A stretch of 64,000 nucleotides of DNA, from positions 434,001 to 498,000 of the forward strand of contig WHVA01000009.1 in the NCBI GenBank assembly GCA_015179125.1, in the 5' to 3' direction. The notes under the pieces are model-generated. The model ran no database searches. It was not told the origin of the DNA and was given only the letters and a program-made list of their open reading frames with translations. The stretch's first letter is position 1; each line of letters starts with the position of its first letter. Shown in pieces: positions 6,251 to 28,493 of the stretch. The translations under genes and the position numbers were made by a program. Source of the stretch: Gautieria morchelliformis (Eukaryota; Basidiomycota; Agaricomycetes; Gomphales; Gomphaceae).

Positions 6251-6885
6251 TGTTACGTATTGAGATTTCCGCTAAGTTGGAACTGGAAAGGACAGTGGCT
6301 TCAACTTGTAGGTTGCGCCCCCAATGAACTATCATCCTAAGTATTTCGGAAAGGAGTCGGAAGTCGGAAAGTACTGAACTGAAGGTTGGTTGGAACTTGA
6401 GGCGGAAGGCGGAGAGACGGAGTCTTGCTAGACTCGCTGTGCTAAGAACAGGAGATGGAGCGAAGGAAATGAAGTATCGAAGGCGATTTATCTGATTGCA
6501 GAATAACAGACATACATGACAGGCTTTTATACAAAGAGCTGAGACAACAGGTAATGGGATGGTACTAAGCAAATTCTGGGGGAAGCGGAAGTCGAGTAGA
6601 CAATGCGTGGGAACTAACTAATTGGGAACAATGGGACTACAAGGGGGGTTCAGGGTAAGGTAAACAATGGCAAAGAACAAGGGGTCGGGAAAACATGTCT
6701 GACAATGAAACACAAGGAGGGCTGGACATATGGTCTTGATGAATGGTGAGGTGGGTCCGGTGGATCCGAGTAATAGAGTCGAAAGAACAAGGGAATAGAA
6801 CAATGGGCGGAATGTCAGAAATATCGGAGGGGCGGAAAGTGTTGCGGAACTGAAGGTCGGAAGTCGGAAATGAACAGTCGTAACA
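6251..6885 (-). repeat. Solo LTR, family A, inside LTR C
   Basis: Minus-orientation A LTR (TGTTACGTAT to GTCGTAACA on the plus strand), flanked by the exact duplication CCGTA at 6246-6250 and 6886-6890. It is the innermost layer of a three-deep nest (A in C in D), hence the youngest of the three insertions here. Confidence 0.9.
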
Positions 6886-17229: not shown

Positions 17230-18515
17230 GGGTAGGACGTCCCGCGAATGCATTCCGGCCATAGGAACACCCAATGGGGGTTGAGTCGAGAAGATGATGG
17301 GACCAGTGATGAACCATCAAGCCAGGTAAAGGATGTCGATCGTGTTTGATGGCATGCCTACTGGCGAATGATGTGAGTAGCGAATAACCGTTCAGTGAAT
17401 TCAGTGAAGAGCGAATGGAGCGAACATAGAAGTGGAGTGATGAAAGGGAAAATGGAGTTACTGGATACAAGACATAAACGAGTCATGACAGTGGGTCTCT
17501 TTTTGAAGCATTTCTGATGAGTCTCCATTTGTTGGAGCCAGGTTCTTTTTCGACTAGGCCCAGGGGGGATGTTCCTAAGTGACCGCCGAAGACGATATGA
17601 GCTTCATCAATTGTGAAAGGGTCTGTGATACGACCAGCGGTGATTTCCTCTTGTAGTTGTTTGTCTATCAGGTTGGGTTGGTCTAGAGCTGATTTCATGT
17701 TCGGGGGTATGAAGGTTTCAGTGAGGTTGGGCAGCATGCCAATCGGTGAGCCCTGGGTGATATCTAGCACAACATTAGGATACAAGTTCGAGAGGTTGAA
17801 GTGTTCTAGCGAGCGATGGAATGTGGTGGCTATATACAGTGTGACGATCCTGGATCGCTCAGATTCTAGGGCAATGGACTTCCCTGTGGGAACCCATGAG
17901 ACAAAGGGTGCAGCAGTGGGGGGGTGTCCTTTGGTGGTGGTAGTGCAGGTGCCCGTGAGGTTGAACTTAAAGCAGACGGGGGTGGAATATATGCTGTAGA
18001 AAAGTTTCTTGTCTCTGGCCACGACGTTGGTTTTGCAGTCAGCGTGTCCGTGTAGAGTGGCCAAGGTGCACTGGATGGAGATATGAGTGTTGGGGAGGCC
18101 ACATTTGAGGCAGAGCTTTGGCCTCGGCTCATGCTCTGCCTTTTCTCGAAAGGGCACGTGGGCCTGTCCACCATTGTGGCACAATGGGCCCGTGTCACCC
18201 AGGCCGGGAGCACCGTACGGCTGGAATCTATAATTGTTCCTGCTGGGTTGTGAGCGTGGGTGAACGGCAAGTTCAGAGCGGACTGAGGCTTTTATCAGGT
18301 CTGCGATCTTCTCTTCGTTCACTTCCCTGTCTGCCAGGAGCCATGCGTATGAGTACTCTGTGCTGCGTGTGTCTGGTGAGAACGGCTTGTCAAAAAGCTG
18401 CTGGCACATCTTGATATCCATATATAAGAAGGTCTTGAAAGCTGATTTCATGTGTGGATCAGTGCTGCAATGGTTGAAATGGCCGGCCCAGGCCAGCGGG
18501 AGTTTGGAGCCTGGT

Positions 18516-19171
18516 TGTTATGTATCGAGATTTCTGCTAAGTCGGAACTTGAAAGGACAGTGGCTTCAACTTGTAGGTTGCGCCCCCAATGAACTATCGT
18601 CCTAGGTATTTCGGAAATGGGTCGGAAGGTGGAATGTACTGAACTGAAGACTCATTGGAAACTTGGGGGGGAATTGAGGTGGAAGACGGAAGGCTGAGAG
18701 ACTGAGGTCTTGCTAGACTCGCTGTGCTAAGAACAGGAGATGGAGCGAAGGAAATCAAGTATCGAAGGTGATTATCTGATTGCAGAATAACAGACATACA
18801 TGACAGGCTTTTATACAAAGAGCTGAGACAACAGGTAATGGGGTAGTACTAAGCAAATTCCGGGGGAAGCGGAAGTCGAGTAGACAATGCATGGGAACTA
18901 ACTAATTGGGAAACAATGGGACTACAAGGGGGGTTCAGGGTAAGGTAAAACAACGGCAAAGAACAAGGGGTCGGGAAAACATGTCTGACAACGAACTACA
19001 AGGGTGACCGGATATATGGTCTTGATGAACGATGAAGCGGGTCTGGTGGGTCCGAGTAATAGAGTCGAAAGAACAAGGGAATAGAACAATGGGCGGAATG
19101 TCGGAAATATTGGAGGGGCGGAAAGTGTTGCGGAACTGAAGGTCAGAAGTCAGAAATGAACGGTTGTAACA
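18516..19171 (-). repeat. 3' LTR of chromovirus A
   Basis: TGTTATGTAT to GGTTGTAACA on the plus strand. The element-proximal edge is the U3 start, which holds a dense run of TTCCG motifs (seen as CGGAA on the plus strand, about 19070-19170). A pyrimidine-rich run on the plus strand at 19174-19184 is the expected polypurine tract. The TATA box lies near 18810 on the minus strand. Confidence 0.85.
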
Positions 19172-19292
19172 GTATCTCCCTTCTAAGGTCGAGCCCTGCG
19201 AGACCACAGGTCGGATCACGTGACCTGTGAACAAACGCGTCGGAGTTTAAAAAATAGGCTGAGGAACAAACACGTCTTCTTTCCAATCCAAC
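19172..19292 (+). promoter_or_regulatory. Promoter region of the antisense zinc-cluster gene
   Basis: Between the 3' LTR edge and the start codon lie a palindromic CACGTG box inside ATCACGTGAC (about 19215) and an AT-rich TATA-like stretch TTTAAAAAATAG (about 19245). The CGGAA array of the LTR lies immediately upstream. That this is a working promoter is inference. Confidence 0.45.
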
Positions 19293-20400
19293 ATGAGTGC
19301 TCCAATCGACTTCTCCAAGATGTCGAGTGCCGAGATGAAACAGCATTTCGCTGACATGCTCGCGCAAAAGGAACTGGCCGAAAAACGTGAGGCCGAGGAA
19401 GCTGCGCGGAAAGAGAAGGAATGTCAGGAGAAAGAGCAGAAAGAACAGGAGAGGAAGGACCGCGAGCGCCGCGAGGAGAAGGAGCGCGTTCGCGAAGAGA
19501 AATGGAAATGGAACGTGGCTAAGAAAGCTGCTGAGGACAAGGCTGCTGCGGAGAAGGCGGAAAAGGAACAGGTGAGTCGGGAATGTCTGGCGGAAATGTC
19601 CTTGTATTAACTGAAAATCCTTCTAGAAAATTGTTCAGGATGAGTCTGAGTCAGACTTGGAAGGTTCAGCGGAAAGTACACCGTCTCCTGAAGGAAAAGG
19701 GAAACAAAAGGAAACCGCTCCTTCGGTGAACATTGTGGTGGAACGGAAACAACGGGCGGACGAATGCCAGAAGGCTCGAAAGAGCAAGTTAAATCAGATG
19801 CTGGAGTTGCGTGAACTAGGACTGGAAAATCCCGCAACTAAGAAGTGGAAAACGTGGGACGACGATGAAGAGGAAAAGGCTCCTTGCGACCCATGCGAAT
19901 CTAGGGGGCTGGATTGCACGTGGTCGAGTAATCCACAGGAAACATCGTGTGGTCAGTGCCGGGACAAGAAAAAACGCTGTGTCATGGATGGGTGTGCCTC
20001 GAGGGTGGAGCGAAAGAAACAGAAGGTTGAGGAGTCGATTCTGAAGTCGGAACCGGGACCGAGCGGAGGGAGGTCCGCGGAATCGTTTCCGGTGACCGGA
20101 AAATCGGGACAGGCAGTGTTGAACCGGTTTACGATGTCTTATCCACTCCTTGACATTGCCGGGTCGCTGAGGGCCATGCGGGAACAGCAACGCGAAATCC
20201 GGGACATAATGATCGATATGGCAGAGGTTCAGCAGCATCAGGTTCTGTCAATTCAGAACCAGATGACTGTTATGTCCACAGTCCTGGAACAGTTGACGCG
20301 GGAAATGCGGTGGCGGAATGATCTGGTCCGGGACCGAATGGACGCGCAGCTGCAGGAGCAGGGAATTGGGGCAGAAGCAGGTCCGAGCGGGAGGGCGTAA
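19293..20400 (+). CDS. Zn2Cys6 zinc-cluster protein encoded antisense in chromovirus A
   Basis: Two plus-strand coding segments, 19293-19571 and 19627-20400, flank a 55-base GTGAGT..TTCTAG sequence that looks like an ordinary phase-0 intron, giving about 350 residues. The N-terminal 90 residues are a highly charged K/E/R coiled coil. In the second segment six cysteines follow CX2CX6CX10CX2CX6C (CDPCESRGLDC, then CGQCRDKKKRC), exactly the spacing of the fungal binuclear zinc cluster that binds CGG-type DNA sites. A basic stretch and a second helical, glutamine-rich region follow. It lies tail-to-tail with the chromovirus pol and between pol and the 3' LTR, so it is cargo or an accessory gene of the element. 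Similar Cys-cluster proteins are abundant in mushroom genomes; whether this one is a DNA-binding regulator is inference. Confidence 0.75.
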
Positions 20401-20639
20401 ACGAGGGAAAGAGTGGAAACGGAGTTGGTGAGTGTTGAAGTAGGAGAGGCGGAAAAAGAGCCGGAAGCGGAGAAAGAGGTCGAGGCGGAGACAATGAGGG
20501 AGGAGTAGGGGTCTAAAAGACTTGTAAATAATTTCTTGAAGTGTCGGAAAATAGCATAACGGATATTAATCGGATTTTGACATGTAACTTGAGATCTGTA
20601 AGAATAAATGAGGGTATCGGAAGTGGAATCGGAAATGAC

Positions 20640-23600
20640 TAGGGCGTGGAAATGGGGCCAGGCTTATCGGGATATGACTTGTGAAAATCAGAGACGAGGT
20701 CAGAGGTGTGATCGACTTCCATGGCGGAAATCCAGGAAGTCTCTTCGTCGGTGTTTTCATAGCCTGCCCACTTGACTAGGTGCTGGAGTTGGCAGCGGTA
20801 TCGTCTGTCAAGCTTGGAGTTGAGAATTTCCGAGATTTCATATTCCGGTTCTCCGTCGATGATTACCGGCGGAGGCGGAGGTTGTTGTCAATTCGGAATT
20901 GTATTCGGAACTGCAGGCTCAAGCATAGAGACGTGGAATACCGGGTGTACTGTGCGCATATTGTCAGGAAGTCTGAGGGTGAAAGAATGACTGCCGGCCT
21001 TAGCGATGATCTCGTAAGGTCCAAGGTATTTTTCAGAGAGTTTCTTTGAGGGGCGAGTAGTGCGGAAGTTTTCAGCTTTGACAAAGACTTTGTTGCCTAT
21101 CTCGAATGCCGGTTGCGGAAGTCGTTTCCGATCGGTGGAAGTTTGGTATCTCTTTTGGGCAGCGGATATGTTCTCTCGGAGGTGCTGGTGAAGGTCGTCG
21201 AGTTCCACAACGAAATCTCGGGCTCTTGCAGAGGCGAGGTCGCGTTCAGGGTGGATGGCGAGATTCGGGTGGTAGCCCTTGTTGGCGTAGAAGGGCGAAA
21301 TTCCAGTGGTAGCGGAAGGTGCATTGTTGTAGGCAAATTCTGTGAGCGGAAGGAGGTCGGACCAATTGCTGTGTTGGTAGTTGCAATAGATGCAGAGATA
21401 CTGTTCAAGGGTCTGATTAGTACATTCCGTTTGTCCGTCTCCTTCGGGATGATAACCGGAAATGAAGTGGAGTTTCATGTCGAGAGCCTTGCCGAGCATG
21501 CGGAAAAAGGAGGACACGAATTCGGATCCACGGTTGGAAGTCACATGGGAAGGGATTCCGTGCTTGGAAAAGATGTGGAGCATGAAGAGCTGTGCGAGCT
21601 GGGCGGAAGTGATGGTGTCGTATGTCAGAATAAAGATGGACTGCTTTGTGAGGCGGTCAACAATCACTAGAATGGCATCATAGCCAGATGACTTAGGAAG
21701 TTTCTCAATGAAATCCATGGATATCGAATTCCACGGTTGTTCCGGGATCGGAAGTTGCTTCAGGAGGCCGTAGGGTTTGTGATGTTGAGGCTTGGCTCGC
21801 ATACAGGTGGTGCATGACTTGCAGTAGTCTTGGACCATCGTGCAGAGGAGAGGCCAAGTATAGGTACGTCGGATTATGTTGAGGGTTTTGTTCTGGCCTT
21901 GGTGTCCTGAGAGCGGATGATCGTGGCTTTGCTGGAGTAGGCAAAGTCGTAGATCGTTGGTATCCGGAACGTAAATCCGGGACTTGTACCGGAGAAATCC
22001 GTCGGAATCGAGGGACCATCCAGGACTGGTTGGGTCATCGAGGTGGGCTGCAGAGATGGGATCGGAACGAAGTGCGGAATGGATGTCATAATGGAGAGAC
22101 TCGGTGTCCATAATAATCGAGGCGCGGAGTAGCGGAAACTGCAATGCTGTGGCACGCAGGGATGATGCCAGTTGCTCAGTCGAGAATACTGGGCAAAAAT
22201 TGTGTGGATTAATGCTGGCATAGTCGCTACTTCCCTCTTTTGGGTAGACATCCCAACGTCTAGTGAGTGCGTCGGGTTTTGCTCCGAGCTTTCCGGGGCG
22301 GAAGCGGATCACCATGTTGAACTGTGAGAGATATTCAGACCAGTGGACTTGACAGCGAGTTAAAATCTTAGTAGTTGCAAAATACTCAAGGTTCTTATGA
22401 TCCGTTACAACGTCGATCGGATAAGTTGGACCTTCGAGATAGTGTCTCCAGATTTTGAAGGCTTCGAAAATCACAAGTAGTTCCTTATCGTGGACGTCGT
22501 AGTTGAGTTCCGGGGCGGAAAAGGTGTGGGAATGAAAGGTGATCGGATGAATTTCTCCGTCGTCGGGGGAAATGATGGAAAGAATGGCGGCTAGCGCATA
22601 GTCGGAAGCGTCGGTTTCGAGTACAAGTTGGGCATCAGGAATCCAGAAACCGAGTATGGGAGCCGTGGTGAAGGCCGATTTGAGGGCTTCAAATGGAGAA
22701 CGGCATTCCGGAGTGAAATTCCATGGGGCACCCTTCCTGGTGAGACGCGTGAGCGGAACAGTAATGTCAGAAAAATTATAAATGAAACACCGGTAAAAGT
22801 TGGCAAAGCCAAGGAAAGACTGTACATCCTTAACATGTCGGGGTTCCGGCCATTCTTGAATTGCCTTGACCTTGTCCTCTGCCATGGTAAGACCCGTAGG
22901 AGAGAGGATGTAGCCTAGGTATTCGACCGTGTCGCGATGCCATTCGCATTTCTCTGCTTTTGCGTAGAGATGGTGTTTGCGTAGGCGGCGGAGTACTTTG
23001 CAGACATGTTCCCGATGTTTTTCCGGTGTGTCGGAATAGATGAGGATGTCATCAATGTAGACTAGGACACATACGTCGAGAAGGTCTGAAAATACATCGT
23101 TCATAAATCGCTGGAAAGCGGCGGGAGCATTGGTTAGACCGAAAGGCATGACGACCCACTCGAAAGCACCGTAGCGGGTGTGGAAGGTGGTTTTCCACTC
23201 GTCACCTTCCCGGATGCGGACAAGGTGATAAGCGTGCTGGAGGTCAATTTTGGTGTAGATCTTCGCCCTGCGGGGAGTGTCGAGTAGATTGGAAATGCGC
23301 GGAAGTGGATATTTGTCCTTCTTAGTGAGGGTGTTTAGTCGGTGGAAATCGACGCAGAGGCGGAGAGATCCATCCTTCTTCTTGACAAAAAGGACCGGAG
23401 CACCGTGCGGAGACAGCGAAGGGCGGATGAAGCCCATGTTGAGATGTTCATCAACGAACTTGCAGAGAGTTTGGAGTTCACTTTGTGAAAAAGAATAGAT
23501 CGGTCCAAGGGGCGGAGATGCTCCTTCTTCCAAATCTATCTTCAGATCATAAGGTCGATGTTCAGCAGGTTTATCGGCTTTGGCCTTATTGAACACGTCC

Positions 23601-23914
23601 GGGAAGTCACAATATTCTTCTGGAACTGAGCTCATGTCGACCGGAGCGGAAGTCGAGGCGGAACGAGCCTTGACTGAAGCCGAGTCGGAAAGGTGAAGCT
23701 GGAAAATGGTCGTGTCTTCTTGCCGTTGCAATACACGGAAAGCGTGGCGGAAATGAGCGCAATTCGAGGAGCTTCGAGGGATGGAGGTGCTAAAGCGGGA
23801 CCGGAGTGCGGAACTGAATCCATGAGCGGAGTTGCAGAAGAGGCCTGAGCCATCTTGCGGACGACGTCGGAATAGACGGAAGTTGATTAGGCATAATACT
23901 GTATTATGACACAC
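20640..23914 (-). mobile_element. Chromovirus A pol region (RT, RNase H, integrase, chromodomain)
   Basis: Minus strand. Going downstream: reverse transcriptase (PHGAPVLFVKKKDGSLRLCV; active site VYIDDILIYS), RNase H (LVLETDASDYALAAILS), the integrase zinc-binding region (HDHPLSGHQGQNKTLNI and CTTCMRAKP), the catalytic core (SMDFIEKLPKSSGYDAI, GSEFVSSFF) and a chromodomain-like end (YRCQLQHLVKWAGYENTDEE, about 20760-20830). The order RT-RNaseH-integrase-chromodomain defines the chromovirus branch of Ty3/Gypsy. Confidence 0.88.
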
Positions 23915-24866
23915 GAATGCCCGAATAACTTGTCGAATAAGTATGCCGTTCAGTGAATAAGTGAACCGATGAATTCACGAAACAAGAGGGTTGCCCGAAT
24001 GGGGCTCGCCTATCTACAGTCGTAGCAAATAGCTCGCAGCACTTGACGACGTAACGTGCAAGATATCGCGGAATGGCTGTCTAAGTTTCGACAGTCCCTT
24101 CGCTGGCGAAGGTCCCTTCAGAGCCCTCGCCACAGCACAGAAAGTAGTTCGAAGCTAAGTAAACGAAGATGAAGTATGAGAACTCACCAGCGATGCCTAA
24201 GTCCTTGGCTGGTTGAAGATAGAAATCTTCAACGGAGCTCAAGACGATGATCACAGTGAGGTCAAGTTGCACAAGATGGACGACGTATGATAATTGAACT
24301 GGGGAATATACATCGAAAGGAAACTACTTATATGAATGCTCATAAGGTATCAGCAAATAGAAAGAGGCCGTCACAAGTCAGGTTGGATAGGGGTGCGCAG
24401 TCATGATACTAGGTAGATGGAATAAACATACAATAGAGTGAGGGAGAATGCGAAGTGAAACGATGGAGAGTAAAGGGAGCAAAGGCACTTATGGACAAAA
24501 CCATGTTTGGGACCCGCATACATGCTACCCTGCACGGGCTCTTCGTTACTGGTTGATCCCGCACGGCCTATGAAGAAGACGTCCTGCGATCACACTTTGG
24601 CCATACGAACACCCCAATGGGGTTGATTAAGAAGATGATGGGGTTAATGATGAACCATCATTCCGGGTGAATGGTATCGATCAATCGATGGCGTGCCTGC
24701 TACGAAATGTGCGAGCACGAATAGCGGTTCGGAGAATGGGGCGAACAGCGGATAGAGTGGACGTAGAGGGGAAGTGGTCGTAGGTGCGGCGGAACTCTGG
24801 CGAAGATGCTAGGGAGTGACAAGGGGGAACATAGAGGTAGCGTGTAGAGAAATAAACCTCATGACA
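23888..24866 (-). repeat. LTR B copy inside chromovirus A
   Basis: A diverged B-family LTR ending CTCATGACA, lying between the protease and pol of A. It is flanked by a 12-base direct repeat ACGGAAGTTGAT (23876-23887 and 24868-24879), longer than the 5-bp duplications of the other B copies. It appears older than the other B copies, judging by its divergence. Confidence 0.72.
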
Positions 24867-24879
24867 AACGGAAGTTGAT

Positions 24880-26702
24880 CCGGGGTACAGAACTGTATTG
24901 ACCCAATGCCCAGTTAATTGACGGATTATATCGGGTGAGCCAATTGTGTCCTAGTACAACGGAACAGCTAGCATCTAGCGGAGTAACTAAAACATAACTT
25001 CATGGTTGTCCCCGGTAGCAAAACAGATAGACAGGTCCACGACTTGGGAAATTGCCGTGTTAGACCGACCCCGTCGAAAAGGCAAGCGGAATTGTCGGAA
25101 TGTTGCAGGTTGGAAGTTTATGTTTCAAAACCAAAGTCGAATCGAGGAAACAGTGAGTCGAACCGGATCGATCAATGCTGTGAATGGGGTGCGGAAATTG
25201 TGTCGGAAGTGAGCGGAACAGAGAGGGAGTCGAGGACGAAAGAGCGGATGCATTGAGTTAACCTTGTTTGTGCACGAATGGGTCAACACAGCCCTCAGCT
25301 CGTGCGGAGGCCGGAGGACTGCTGACTATTTTTTGCATCGTAGTGGAGCCGCTTCGGTATTTCTCTTCCCACTTCGCCGCACGGCCCTTGGCCTTGCAGC
25401 GGAAGCAGAAGCTCGAGTGCAATCGCGAGCGAACGTGACCCTCCTTGCCGCAGAAGAGGCAAAGGTTGTTGTCCATGCGACGCCTGGCGTTCTACCAGGG
25501 GTAAGTTTTCCGTCCTTCCCAAGTTTGTCGGAAAGGTCCGGAGTGCTCTTCCGGGCGTTGGTGTTGGAACCAGAGGCCCTGGTTATTGCGAGGGGTGGAG
25601 TTGTTGTTCCGGTTGCTGGAGTTGGATCTGGAACTGTTGTTGTTGTTGTTTCCAGAGTTGTTGTTTCCGGAATTAGTCTTCTTCTTGGTCTTTATCAGAC
25701 TTTTGTCGAAGACTTGTCGTTCTTGCTCTGGGCGGAGGTTTCGCGAGCAATCTCGGAGTGTCTTCCCAGTAGCGCGAATCAATGGATTGGGCTAAATTAC
25801 AAAGGTCGTAAGGGTGGCGGGTTTTCCGACGTGGGCAATTTCATCCTTGATCCCGGGATGGCCACCCATGTAAAACTGGTGTCGGAGTGCGGCTTCTCCC
25901 CATTGGACTTGAGGAGCGAGCTGCTGGAATGTGACGATATATTTAGCTATCTTATGAGTGTCTTTCATACGAAGCTTATCGAGTTCATTTTCCGCATTGG
26001 CCAAATGGTCCGAAGTTGCTGCGGAGTTCGGAAATGAAGTTGTGGTAATCGTCGGCCCAGTCGATGAGAGCGAACGGATCCATGAGGGCGGGTTGAAGTA
26101 GTCGAGAGCCATGCCTCGGAGATAGGAAAGGGTGTAATGACCTTTCATTCGTCGTCGGAAAGGCGTCGGGATGATCGCGGGAAGTGAGTTGAAGCTGGAC
26201 CAGAAATGGCTGGAGCTTCTTGGGGTCGGAACCGTCAATTGATCTGGTTCGCGGACCTTTGTCTTGGGGCGAGGTGGTGCTTGGGCCGGGCGCTGGAGTT
26301 GTCCGGCTAGCATTGCGATGGCTTGTGCAAGATCCAGAACTGGCGCGGGGGGAACTGGGTGGCGGGATCTGAGGTGGGATTGGAGGTGGAGGACCGCCGG
26401 GTGGGCCGCCATGAGGGCCGCCTGGGGGTGGTCCTGGTGGTGGTGGTGGTGCTGGGCGTCGGAATGACGCTGCTGTTTGTTCCCGCTGCTACTCGTCGAA
26501 TTCCCATCATAGTCGGGATTGTCGTCGGATTAGCGTCGGGAACTTCTTCGAAGCGTTGCAGAATAGCATCGGAGAGCTCATCAGCACGAGAGCTGCTGGA
26601 GGGTTCCGCGTGTCTTGGTGCTGCAGATCTAAGACTGCCAAAATAAGAGAGAGCTTCAACAGCTCCTGCTCGAGCTGAAGTAGCTGTGGTACGAGGAGGC
26701 AT
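24880..26702 (-). mobile_element. Chromovirus A gag and protease region
   Basis: Minus strand. The N-terminal Gag begins MPPRTTATSARAGAVEAL at 26702. The Gag core is near 25800-26200, a zinc-knuckle region (CLFCGKEGH) near 25460, and a protease tail with the typical phrase VVLGHNWLTRYNPSINW near 24930. The region directly precedes pol and follows the 5' LTR. Confidence 0.75.
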
Positions 26703-26745
26703 AGTGATAGGTATCGGGTGGGAATCAGATAATACTGTTACGTAT

Positions 26746-27866
26746 TGTTACGACCGTTCATTTCCGACTTCCGACCCTCAGCTCCGCAACACCTTCCGCC
26801 CCTCCGATATTTCCGCAACACCTTCCACCCCTCCGATATTTCCGACATTCCGCCCCTTGTACATTTCCCTTGTTCTTTCGACTCTATTACTCGGACCCCA
26901 CCGGACCCACCTCACCGTTCATCAAGATCATACCTCCGGTCCTCCTTGTGTTTCGTTGTCAGATATGTTTTCCCCACCCCTTGTTCCTTGCCATTGTTCT
27001 ACCTTACCCTGAACCCCCCTTGTAGTCCCATTGTTCCCAATTAGTTAGTTCCCACGCATTGTCTACTCGACTTCCGCTTCCCCCGGAATTTGCTTAGTAC
27101 TACACCATTACCTGTTGTTGGGTGCATTTATGCTCCTGCACCAAAATCAAGCATAATATGTTCAATTTATTGTGTGGTGTTTCCAATTGTTTCTCACATT
27201 GTTCTTGTACCATGCATCCATTTCTCTGATTATTTTCGAAAATTTCCAGTCACTCCCTATCTCTCCATTCCACTTTGTTATCTCTATTTTCACAGGCGGC
27301 TGCACCCAGCGGAGTTTGAAATGATTTCGACGCGGGAGCTCTTGGGCGCTAAAGGGCCGGGTGCACGTATATGCCTTCTGAGACAGGATTATACTCCTCT
27401 CTCAGTGACAATAAATTCACTGAGAGAGGCAAGTAGTATTCTTTGTATTTTCATAACATGTTGACTGAAAATCATGTAGTACATTTGATTCTAGGTATTG
27501 TATTAATACATCAGTGACAATAAATTCACTGAGAGAGTACATTTGATTCTAGCTTTCTAAGAACTCTACCGAACCTTCCCTGCCATAGCCCCTAGTTGCT
27601 AACACCTGTTGTCTCAGCTCTTGTATAAAAGCCTGTCATGTATGTCTGTTATTCTGCAATCAGATAATCGCCTTCGATACTTGATTTCCTTCGCTCCATC
27701 TCCTGTTCTTAGTACAGCGAGTCTAGAAAGATCTCAGTCTCTCTCCGCCTTCCGCCTCAGTTCCGACTCAAGTTCCGACCAACCTTTGGTTCAGTACTTT
27801 CTGACTTCCGACTCAGTTCCGAAATACTTAGGACGATAGTTCATTGGGGGTACAACCTATAAGTCG
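26746..27866 (+). repeat. Plus-orientation A LTR inserted in the 5' LTR of chromovirus A
   Basis: Ten bases of the host 5' LTR edge (TGTTACGTAT, 26736-26745) are followed directly by TGTTACGACC, the start of a second, oppositely oriented A LTR. Its TATA box (TATAAAAG) is at about 27624. It is interrupted by a 485-bp insert (27119-27603). Together with the host LTR to its right it forms an inverted pair. Confidence 0.78.
27119..27603. mobile_element. 485-bp insert with 9-bp target duplication
   Basis: Inserted in an A LTR and flanked by ACCTGTTGT (27110-27118 and 27604-27612). It has no coding capacity and no clear terminal inverted repeats. Inside is a perfect 12-bp-arm hairpin (CTCTCTCAGTGA, 8-base loop CAATAAAT, TCACTGAGAGAG, near 27398-27430); its core CAGTGACAATAAATTCACTG recurs near 27510. 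A 9-bp duplication is typical of Mutator-like transposases, so a non-autonomous MULE-type element is the best guess. Confidence 0.6.
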
Positions 27867-28493
27867 GAACTGGAAAGGACAGTGGCTTCAACTTGTAGGT
27901 TGCGCCCCCAATGAACTATCGTCCTAGGTATTTTCGGAAATGGGTCGGAAGTCGGAATACACTGAACTGAAGGTTCGTCGGAACTTGAGGTGGAATTGAG
28001 GCGGAAGACGGAAGGCGGAGAGATGGAGGTCTTGCTAGACTCGCTGTGCTAAGAACAGGAGATAGAGCGAAGGAAATCAAGTATCGAAGGTGATTATCTG
28101 ATTGCAGAATAACAGACATACATGACAGGCTTTTATACAAAGAGCTGAGACAACAGGTAATGGGGTAGTACTAAGCAAATTCCGGGGGAAGCGGAAGTCG
28201 AGTAGACAATGCGTGGGAACTAACTAATCGGGAAACAATGGGACTACAAGGGGGGTTCAGGGTAAGGTAAAACAATGGCAAAGAACAAGGGGTCGGGAAA
28301 ACATGTCTGACAACGAACTTCAAGGGTGACCGGATATATGGTCTTGATGAACGATGAAGCGGGTCCAGTGGGTCCAAGTAATAGAGTCGAAAGAACAAGG
28401 GAATAGAACAATGGGCGGAATGTCGGAACTATCGGAGGGGCGGAAAGTGTTGCGGAACTGAAGGTCGGAAGTCGGAAATGAACGGTCGTAACA
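27867..28493 (-). repeat. 5' LTR of chromovirus A (main part)
   Basis: Minus-orientation A LTR ending GGTCGTAACA at 28493. It faces the plus-orientation LTR to its left, so the two form a large inverted repeat centred near 27878. The U3 edge (28390-28493) carries the TTCCG array; the TATA box is near 28130 on the minus strand. Confidence 0.82.

Follow-up and report, generated by a model that had tools for sequence, protein, structure and literature searches.

Plant Gypsy retrotransposons of the Retand/Tat lineage (TRP28; Grande gene23, RIRE2 and Retand) carry a conserved antisense ORF between pol and the 3' LTR, and according to two reports its product is predicted to bind DNA and has been proposed to have a regulatory role (PMC11963269, PMC7264820). 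HTLV-1 likewise encodes an antisense nuclear regulator, HBZ, beside its 3' LTR (PMC11963269). In Arabidopsis, the VANC proteins of the Mutator-like VANDAL transposons are associated with a short word that occurs in one orientation and at high density within the protein's own family, and VANC proteins related to one another differ in the spectrum of elements on which they act. With both binding and demethylation shown for VANC, sequence-specific anti-silencing by a transposon is documented for these plant elements (PMC5735166 for both statements).

The locus described here lies in a 64,000-nucleotide stretch of the genome of the basidiomycete Gautieria morchelliformis (contig WHVA01000009.1), which we call the window, and consists of a Ty3/Gypsy chromovirus that carries an antisense gene with six cysteines (Table 1). 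The Retand-type ORFs are its closest anatomical relatives, being likewise antisense, placed between pol and the 3' LTR, and conserved in most copies. Retand belongs to a non-chromovirus lineage and has a TRP28 domain, whereas the window element is a chromovirus with a six-cysteine cluster, and TRP28 (PF04195) was not among the Pfam matches of the window element or of four relatives. HBZ, a spliced bZIP protein of a human retrovirus, is unlike the window ORF with its six-cysteine cluster. The likeness to VANC lies in an element-encoded protein together with a dense, unidirectional word of its own family; in contrast, VANDALs are plant DNA transposons, we know of no zinc cluster in VANC, and VANC21 sites are mainly noncoding whereas the word described below also lies in coding DNA. 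Fungal DNA transposons reportedly carry TET/JBP dioxygenase genes, which could counter DNA methylation; these encode an enzyme, whereas the window ORF is a candidate sequence-reading protein of an LTR element. The initial annotation had called an antisense regulator in a Ty3/Gypsy element unusual, which is half right, as antisense ORFs with predicted DNA binding are known from plant Retand elements (PMC11963269).

The order of RT, RNase H and integrase, a C-terminal chromodomain and LTRs place the window element among the chromoviruses. Pfam matches in pol comprise RVT_1 (2e-37), RNase H and H2C2, with rve at 27.0 bits, short of the 32.6 that its cut-off requires, and the chromodomain of this copy is barely above its cut-off and lies in a frame separate from pol. 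Between gag and the outer LTR (26736-27864) lies another LTR of this family, inverted and interrupted by ~500 bp of foreign sequence; the same inverted LTR adjoins gag in another copy, L011, though the left flank there is unrelated. LTR-like copies of the same family without an adjoining internal region are found at 1047-1691 and 6251-6885 of the window. The repeat of ~980 bp that is inserted in the element has stretches 75-85% identical to it elsewhere in the window, at ~2.3, 4.2-4.9, 12.9, 14.3, 15.6, 17.2 and 30.6 kb. Adjoining the 3' LTR is an open frame of 344 aa (17483-18517, minus strand), for which a Pfam search returned no family.

Table 1. Features of the antisense gene and of the chromovirus that carries it (window positions)
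Feature	Position	Strand	Description
3' LTR	18516..19171 (approx.)	-	TGTTAC...ATAACA on minus strand; KCGGAR 8 on +, 0 on -
Upstream region of ORF	19172..19292	+	Probable promoter / 5' UTR; near-palindrome with CACGTG, one KCGGAR site, A-rich TATA-like stretch
Exon 1	19293..19571	+	93 codons, Lys/Glu-rich; length varies among copies
Intron	19572..19626	+	55 nt, GTGAGT...CTTCTAG
Exon 2	19627..20400	+	Six-cysteine cluster, codons 19885-19980; C-terminal part helical (model made for relative L055)
C-terminal tail region	20401..20508	+	Coding in relatives (ends MREE), untranslated in window copy
Chromodomain	20639..20887	-	PF00385, 25.9 bits, cut-off 25.1
pol (RT, RNase H, integrase)	20888..23974	-	Open frame of 1028 aa; first codons inside inserted repeat
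Inserted repeat, ~980 bp	23887..24868		Absent from copy L010
gag fragment	25792..26529	-	PF03732, 24.4 bits, cut-off 24.1
Outer (5') LTR	27860..28493 (approx.)	-	95% identical to 3' LTR; inner end missing
KCGGAR array, element-wide	18516..26735	+	On ORF strand, reading YTCCGM in the sense of gag-pol; density 10.8-10.9 per kb vs 0.83 on other strand

The initial annotation had described a plus-strand, two-segment gene with six cysteines, set in a minus-strand chromovirus between its pol and 3' LTR, and this gene is present as described. It starts with an ATG, exon 1 ends in phase 0, the intron donor at 19572 and the acceptor at 19626 are as listed in Table 1, and exon 2 stays open for 257 aa up to a TAA at 20398-20400. 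The donor pattern GTGAGT is present at 47 of 52 loci, and the antisense ORF would be transcribed and spliced. The reading frame of relatives extends ~36 codons beyond 20400, so the window copy is short at its C-terminus. Exon 1 may be coiled-coil-like, to judge from its composition. The region immediately upstream of the ATG probably serves as promoter and 5' UTR of the antisense ORF; a regular expression for a TATA-like pattern, too crude for its count to carry weight, matched at 27 of the 52 loci, and the purine-rich tract of the element, which on the minus strand stands ahead of the 3' LTR, falls within the same interval. A near-palindrome with the core CACGTG, CACAGGTC-GGATCACGT-GACCTGTG, lies upstream of the ORF at 19205-19229, and a loose pattern for it has a match at 43 of the 52 loci.

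The cluster encoded by exon 2, CDPCESRGLDCTWSSNPQETSCGQCRDKKKRC, has the spacing CX2CX6CX10CX2CX6C. The fungal Zn2Cys6 class (PF00172) is characterized by CX2CX6CX5-12CX2CX6-8C, and the window ORF resembles members such as GAL4 and PPR1 in its six cysteines, its two CX2CX6C units and a basic CRxKKxxC half; unlike them, it is encoded by a retrotransposon, falls below the Pfam cut-off and has its halves seemingly swapped. All six cysteines are in register in 38 of 40 distinct copies before any filter is applied, with one cysteine lost in L042 and one in L051. A Pfam search with window exon 2 gave no match; in each of four relatives tested, Zn_clus was the top match, scoring 14.8-17.8 bits where the cut-off is 21. 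The basic residues lie between Cys 5 and Cys 6, not between Cys 2 and Cys 3 as membership of PF00172 asks. Half-by-half comparison with six canonical clusters gave scores of +4.6 to +9.5 for the swapped order and -8.3 to -10.2 for the straight order in four of five copies, and -1.4 versus -7.7 in the fifth (L050); the canonical clusters themselves favour the straight order in 15 of 15 pairs. The cluster thus looks atypical, with its basic half second and the order of its halves apparently swapped, and the identity of fungal zinc cluster that the initial annotation assigned to it is upheld by the spacing and not by the Pfam cut-off or the position of the basic half. The predicted cluster may bind two zinc ions and contact DNA. 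AlphaFold2 modelling of relative L055 gave a mean pLDDT of 59, with the cluster below 50; the confident parts were a C-terminal helix (171-257), which may mediate dimerization, and part of an N-terminal helix only. A PDB sequence search with exon 2 returned no matches at E values up to 1, and a search of viral contigs with a profile of the ORF gave six pattern matches, none of which was confirmed.

Copies were sought in the 122-Mb assembly that contains the window. A search at the DNA level gave 42 matches, and a protein search with exon 2 yielded 148 scored matches of 670 candidates, 60 to 100% identical, of which 115 are stop-free (counted by hand, partial rows and fragments included). These relatives, together with the purifying constraint described below, rule out a chance ORF. 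Among 150 chromodomain matches listed, at least 72 have an ORF match within 3 kb, on the opposite strand in all 72; 12 of the other 78 were fetched, and eight of these carry the cysteine pattern. The expectation that other copies would have the ORF at the same place was therefore borne out by many of them, though the cluster is absent from three of the ten fetched copies that have a 1257-aa pol frame (the other seven have the ORF), so that the ORF is usual but dispensable in cis. The three copies (L053, L054 and L058) have each lost the cluster to a different internal deletion, of ~590 to 910 nt, whose junctions share 8 to 11 nt; a further copy, L063, retains just the end of the ORF. In degraded copies of the ORF the stops are mostly TGA, and C-to-T change is ~2.6-fold more frequent at CpG than elsewhere (0.090 vs 0.035, from non-independent pairs), a pattern that fits cytosine-methylated copies and falls short of proof.

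Selection was assessed on exon 2 in 33 of the 40 distinct copies, those whose frame had 255 aa or more and contained the six-cysteine pattern; the remaining seven were dropped. The median dN/dS was 0.157 (Nei-Gojobori, 518 pairs among these 33 intact copies), and it was 0.154 for the 210 pairs with dS of 0.8-3. An overlap artefact is ruled out, as the ORF and pol do not overlap at all. The presence of all the cysteine columns in 33 of 33 copies is circular because the set was filtered on the six-cysteine pattern, and the usable count is the unfiltered one given above. The antisense ORF is a conserved gene of the element under purifying selection and not a single capture. More synonymous than nonsynonymous change with the cysteines kept, as anticipated in the initial annotation, is what we find; its suggestion that the element carries a DNA-binding regulator of its own stands as regards a conserved antisense six-cysteine gene, the DNA-binding role being plausible and unproven.

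The ORF is an island of divergence within the element. In ten divergent copies (L042-L051), synonymous divergence in exon 2 is 1.15-2.03, and it is 0.16-0.37 in the integrase/chromodomain region of the seven in which pol is intact there (it is disrupted in L048, L049 and L050). The ORF is 0.61-0.78 identical to that of the window copy in L044-L051, compared with 0.67-0.87 in L042 and L043; the LTR part is 0.84-0.95 identical in eight of these copies (L043 and L045-L051, with L042 and L044 having no LTR there), and the end of pol is 0.87-0.97 identical where present. Distances were compared over all pairs of the 29 copies, from 52 loci, that gave LTR, ORF and pol extracts, and one ORF alignment took in 26 of the 40 ORFs. 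Within ORF types (164 pairs) the distances were 0.083 for the ORF, 0.053 for pol and 0.075 for the LTR; between types (67 pairs) they were 0.288, 0.073 and 0.109, and for 13 intermediate pairs 0.239, 0.087 and 0.160, with no pairs at an ORF distance of 0.15-0.20. Old ORF lineages thus sit within backbones that have been homogenised, a pattern suggesting that the ORF is exchanged as a cassette.

Without any preselection, CGGAA emerged as the 5-mer with the strongest enrichment in the window element (68 occurrences vs 5.6 expected); it is also the top 5-mer in copies L010 and L011, and its extended form is KCGGAR. Densities are given here as ORF strand/other strand. KCGGAR occurs at 10.9/0.83 per kb in the window element, 14.9/1.08 in L010, 10.1/0.85 in L011 and, on average, 12.6/1.2 over 40 ORF loci, compared with 0.65/0.68 in host DNA (30-64 kb of the window) and 0.42/0.33 in 12 Copia loci. 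Three Gypsy loci with a pol 37-41% identical have 1.2-1.5 per kb on either strand, unbiased (two of the controls, L077 and L078, gave identical counts and are probably one subfamily); these and the Copia controls rule out TE composition across the genome as the source of the word. The orientation of the word is constant across the LTR, the ORF and pol, even though pol is read from one strand and the ORF from the other, and the sites vary between ORF types. After synonymous codon shuffling, TTCCG came first among 1022 words in window pol (29 vs 9.9 expected), and neither TTCCG nor CGGAA was outstanding in three Copia pol frames. Shuffling and the constant orientation in oppositely coded genes rule out codon usage as the cause of the word in pol, which therefore contains an orientation-biased word beyond codon choice. 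In the ORFs, CGGAA ranked 2 of 991 (L021), 6 of 986 (L047), 1 of 1012 (L055) and 44 of 980 (L052); window exon 2 showed no significant excess (6 vs 3.7 under codon shuffling, with 47 of 400 shuffles attaining the observed count). An element-wide motif of this kind, present in the window family, is not mentioned for the Retand ORFs in the accessible sections of the two reports cited above (PMC11963269, PMC7264820).

A sister family, B (L081/L082), has a pol 72-75% identical to that of the window family, A. At the equivalent place, downstream of L081, it carries an antisense ORF (L082 1780-2652, minus strand) with the pattern CX2CX6C-X15-CX2CX6C, the middle spacing of 15 being outside the Zn2Cys6 range given above. 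A Pfam search did not match Zn_clus in this ORF, and tblastn found no link between it and the window ORF, with which it is unalignable. A genome search with the family B ORF gave 150 scored matches of 494 candidates, stop-free in most matches listed, and dN/dS for two copies was 0.15. The dominant word of family B is CGAGG, at 8.8/2.15 per kb, with KCGGAR at 3.6/0.36 (3.65/0.30 in L081 alone, whose pol is 72% identical); a second copy, L084, whose ORF is 74% identical, has CGAGG 24/4 times and KCGGAR 5/1 times in 2 kb. Under codon shuffling, CCTCG ranked 1 of 1019 in the L084 pol frame and lay above the mean in seven of seven L081/L082 pol frames, the excess being clear in three (matched in 5, 5 and 0 of 300 shuffles) and small in the other four (matched in 14 to 144 of 300); CGAGG ranked 3 of 982 in the L082 ORF and 121 of 963 in that of L084 (8 vs 5.7). 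The sister family with a different antisense ORF thus has a different dominant word, a pairing that rests on two families and two family B loci. Secondary words are common to both, family A having CGAGG at 2.2-2.9 per kb and family B KCGGAR at 3.6. A third six-cysteine sequence, with the spacing CX2CX6CX10CX2CX6C, occurs at L083 2660-2800 (plus strand) and ends with the fetched stretch.

Two further Gypsy groups bear on the distribution of KCGGAR. L079, with a pol 52% identical, has 2.4/0.6 per kb. The other family (window ~7.0-10.4 kb; L076) is abundant, with 150 scored matches of 2463 candidates and a pol ~34% identical. No antisense six-cysteine ORF was found in the L076 copy, in which pol adjoins an LTR-like end, and yet a 494-nt stretch at that end has KCGGAR 9 versus 3 times, so the word is not exclusive to carriers of the ORF; the stretch of this family in the window has an unbiased 3.9/3.3 per kb.

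The reading that we favour, and hold tentatively, is that the ORF product would serve in recognition of the element by itself, as VANC does, with anti-silencing as its most likely use. A conserved antisense protein of DNA-binding type, a unidirectional word containing CGG and a sister family that differs in both are what a self-recognition system predicts. The ORF product would be a trans-acting nuclear protein of the retrotransposon, expressed on the antisense strand by a promoter of its own, located between pol and the 3' LTR, and composed of a Lys/Glu-rich N-terminal arm, a Zn2Cys6-like cluster with the DNA-contacting basic half second, and a C-terminal dimerization helix. KCGGAR, repeated in the same orientation over the LTR, ORF, pol and gag, may be its target, through which it would recognize its own element; dense binding along the element would keep or render the copy free of host silencing and so permit gag-pol transcription, as VANC does for VANDAL. 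Sister families would each have their own protein and their own word. Against self-recognition stand the array in L076, which lacks the ORF, the non-significant excess in window exon 2, the secondary words shared between families, the modest excess of the family B word in the L084 ORF and in four L081/L082 pol frames, the Zn_clus scores below cut-off and lack of a Zn_clus match in the family B ORF, the low pLDDT of the modelled cluster, the presence of the word in coding DNA, unlike the mainly noncoding VANC21 sites, and the copies without a cluster. In literature searches conducted mostly on records without full texts, we found no such self-recognition system, and no zinc-cluster or antisense-ORF equivalent, for LTR retrotransposons, and nothing of this kind on anti-silencing by fungal TEs.

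A more conventional role, in which the protein binds sites in the LTR or promoter only and turns gag-pol transcription up or down, like HBZ of HTLV-1, would leave the element-wide word to some other cause, and we consider it unlikely. The ORF does lie antisense beside the 3' LTR, KCGGAR is dense in both window LTRs (12 per kb in the 3' LTR and 22 in the other), one site is adjacent to the A-rich stretch that precedes the ORF, and HBZ and the plant antisense ORFs are discussed as regulators in PMC11963269. However, with 10-11 per kb, pol and gag come close to the 3' LTR in their density of the word, and in pol the word exceeds the codon-shuffle expectation; a regulator of the promoter would require neither.

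Alternatively, the word might act in RNA or cDNA, as YUCCGM in the genomic RNA, for instance in packaging by Gag or in self-recognition of RNA, with the antisense ORF unrelated. Its strict orientation relative to the element, whatever the coding strand, would suit such a function, as would the array at the LTR-like end of the L076 copy, which has no such ORF. We nevertheless judge this rather improbable, as CGG, the classical half-site of the Zn2Cys6 class, is part of the dominant word, which differs between families with different antisense proteins. VANC sites are likewise unidirectional (PMC5735166). Strand-asymmetric copying errors might instead have made the word, the ORF being constrained for another function; in base composition the ORF strand favours G (0.32) over C (0.19), and CpG sites decay. 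This is very unlikely, since KCGGAR is ~17-fold above host DNA while CGGCA and CGGTA are not raised, CpG decay means loss and not creation of a word with CpG, and the Copia loci (0.3-0.4 per kb over 12 loci) and the three distant Gypsy loci show no comparable density. Recent transduction of a host zinc-cluster gene as a passenger, which the initial annotation had entertained as capture of a host regulator, has in its favour the retained intron and a cluster resembling those of fungal transcription factors, though below cut-off, and is most improbable, being contradicted by conservation across families, the many deep ORF types, dN/dS of ~0.15 and an unalignable second six-cysteine ORF at the equivalent place in the sister family.

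Self-recognition extends to a broader proposal, to which we give slightly less credence, namely that in this chromovirus lineage a diversifying, half-swapped Zn2Cys6 antisense protein and a family-specific word, set in a single orientation across LTR, accessory gene and gag-pol coding sequence, may co-evolve, giving separate, non-interfering codes for anti-silencing (or self-activation). If true, it would hint at what antisense ORFs located between pol and the 3' LTR do; for those of plants, PMC11963269 describes the role as unknown. It would also provide a compact, testable system of two proteins and two words in one genome. It would be a second, independent case of sequence-specific anti-silencing, in Ty3/Gypsy, with a different DNA-binding fold and two natural protein/word pairs, and would mean that selfish elements repeatedly evolve self-addressed codes.
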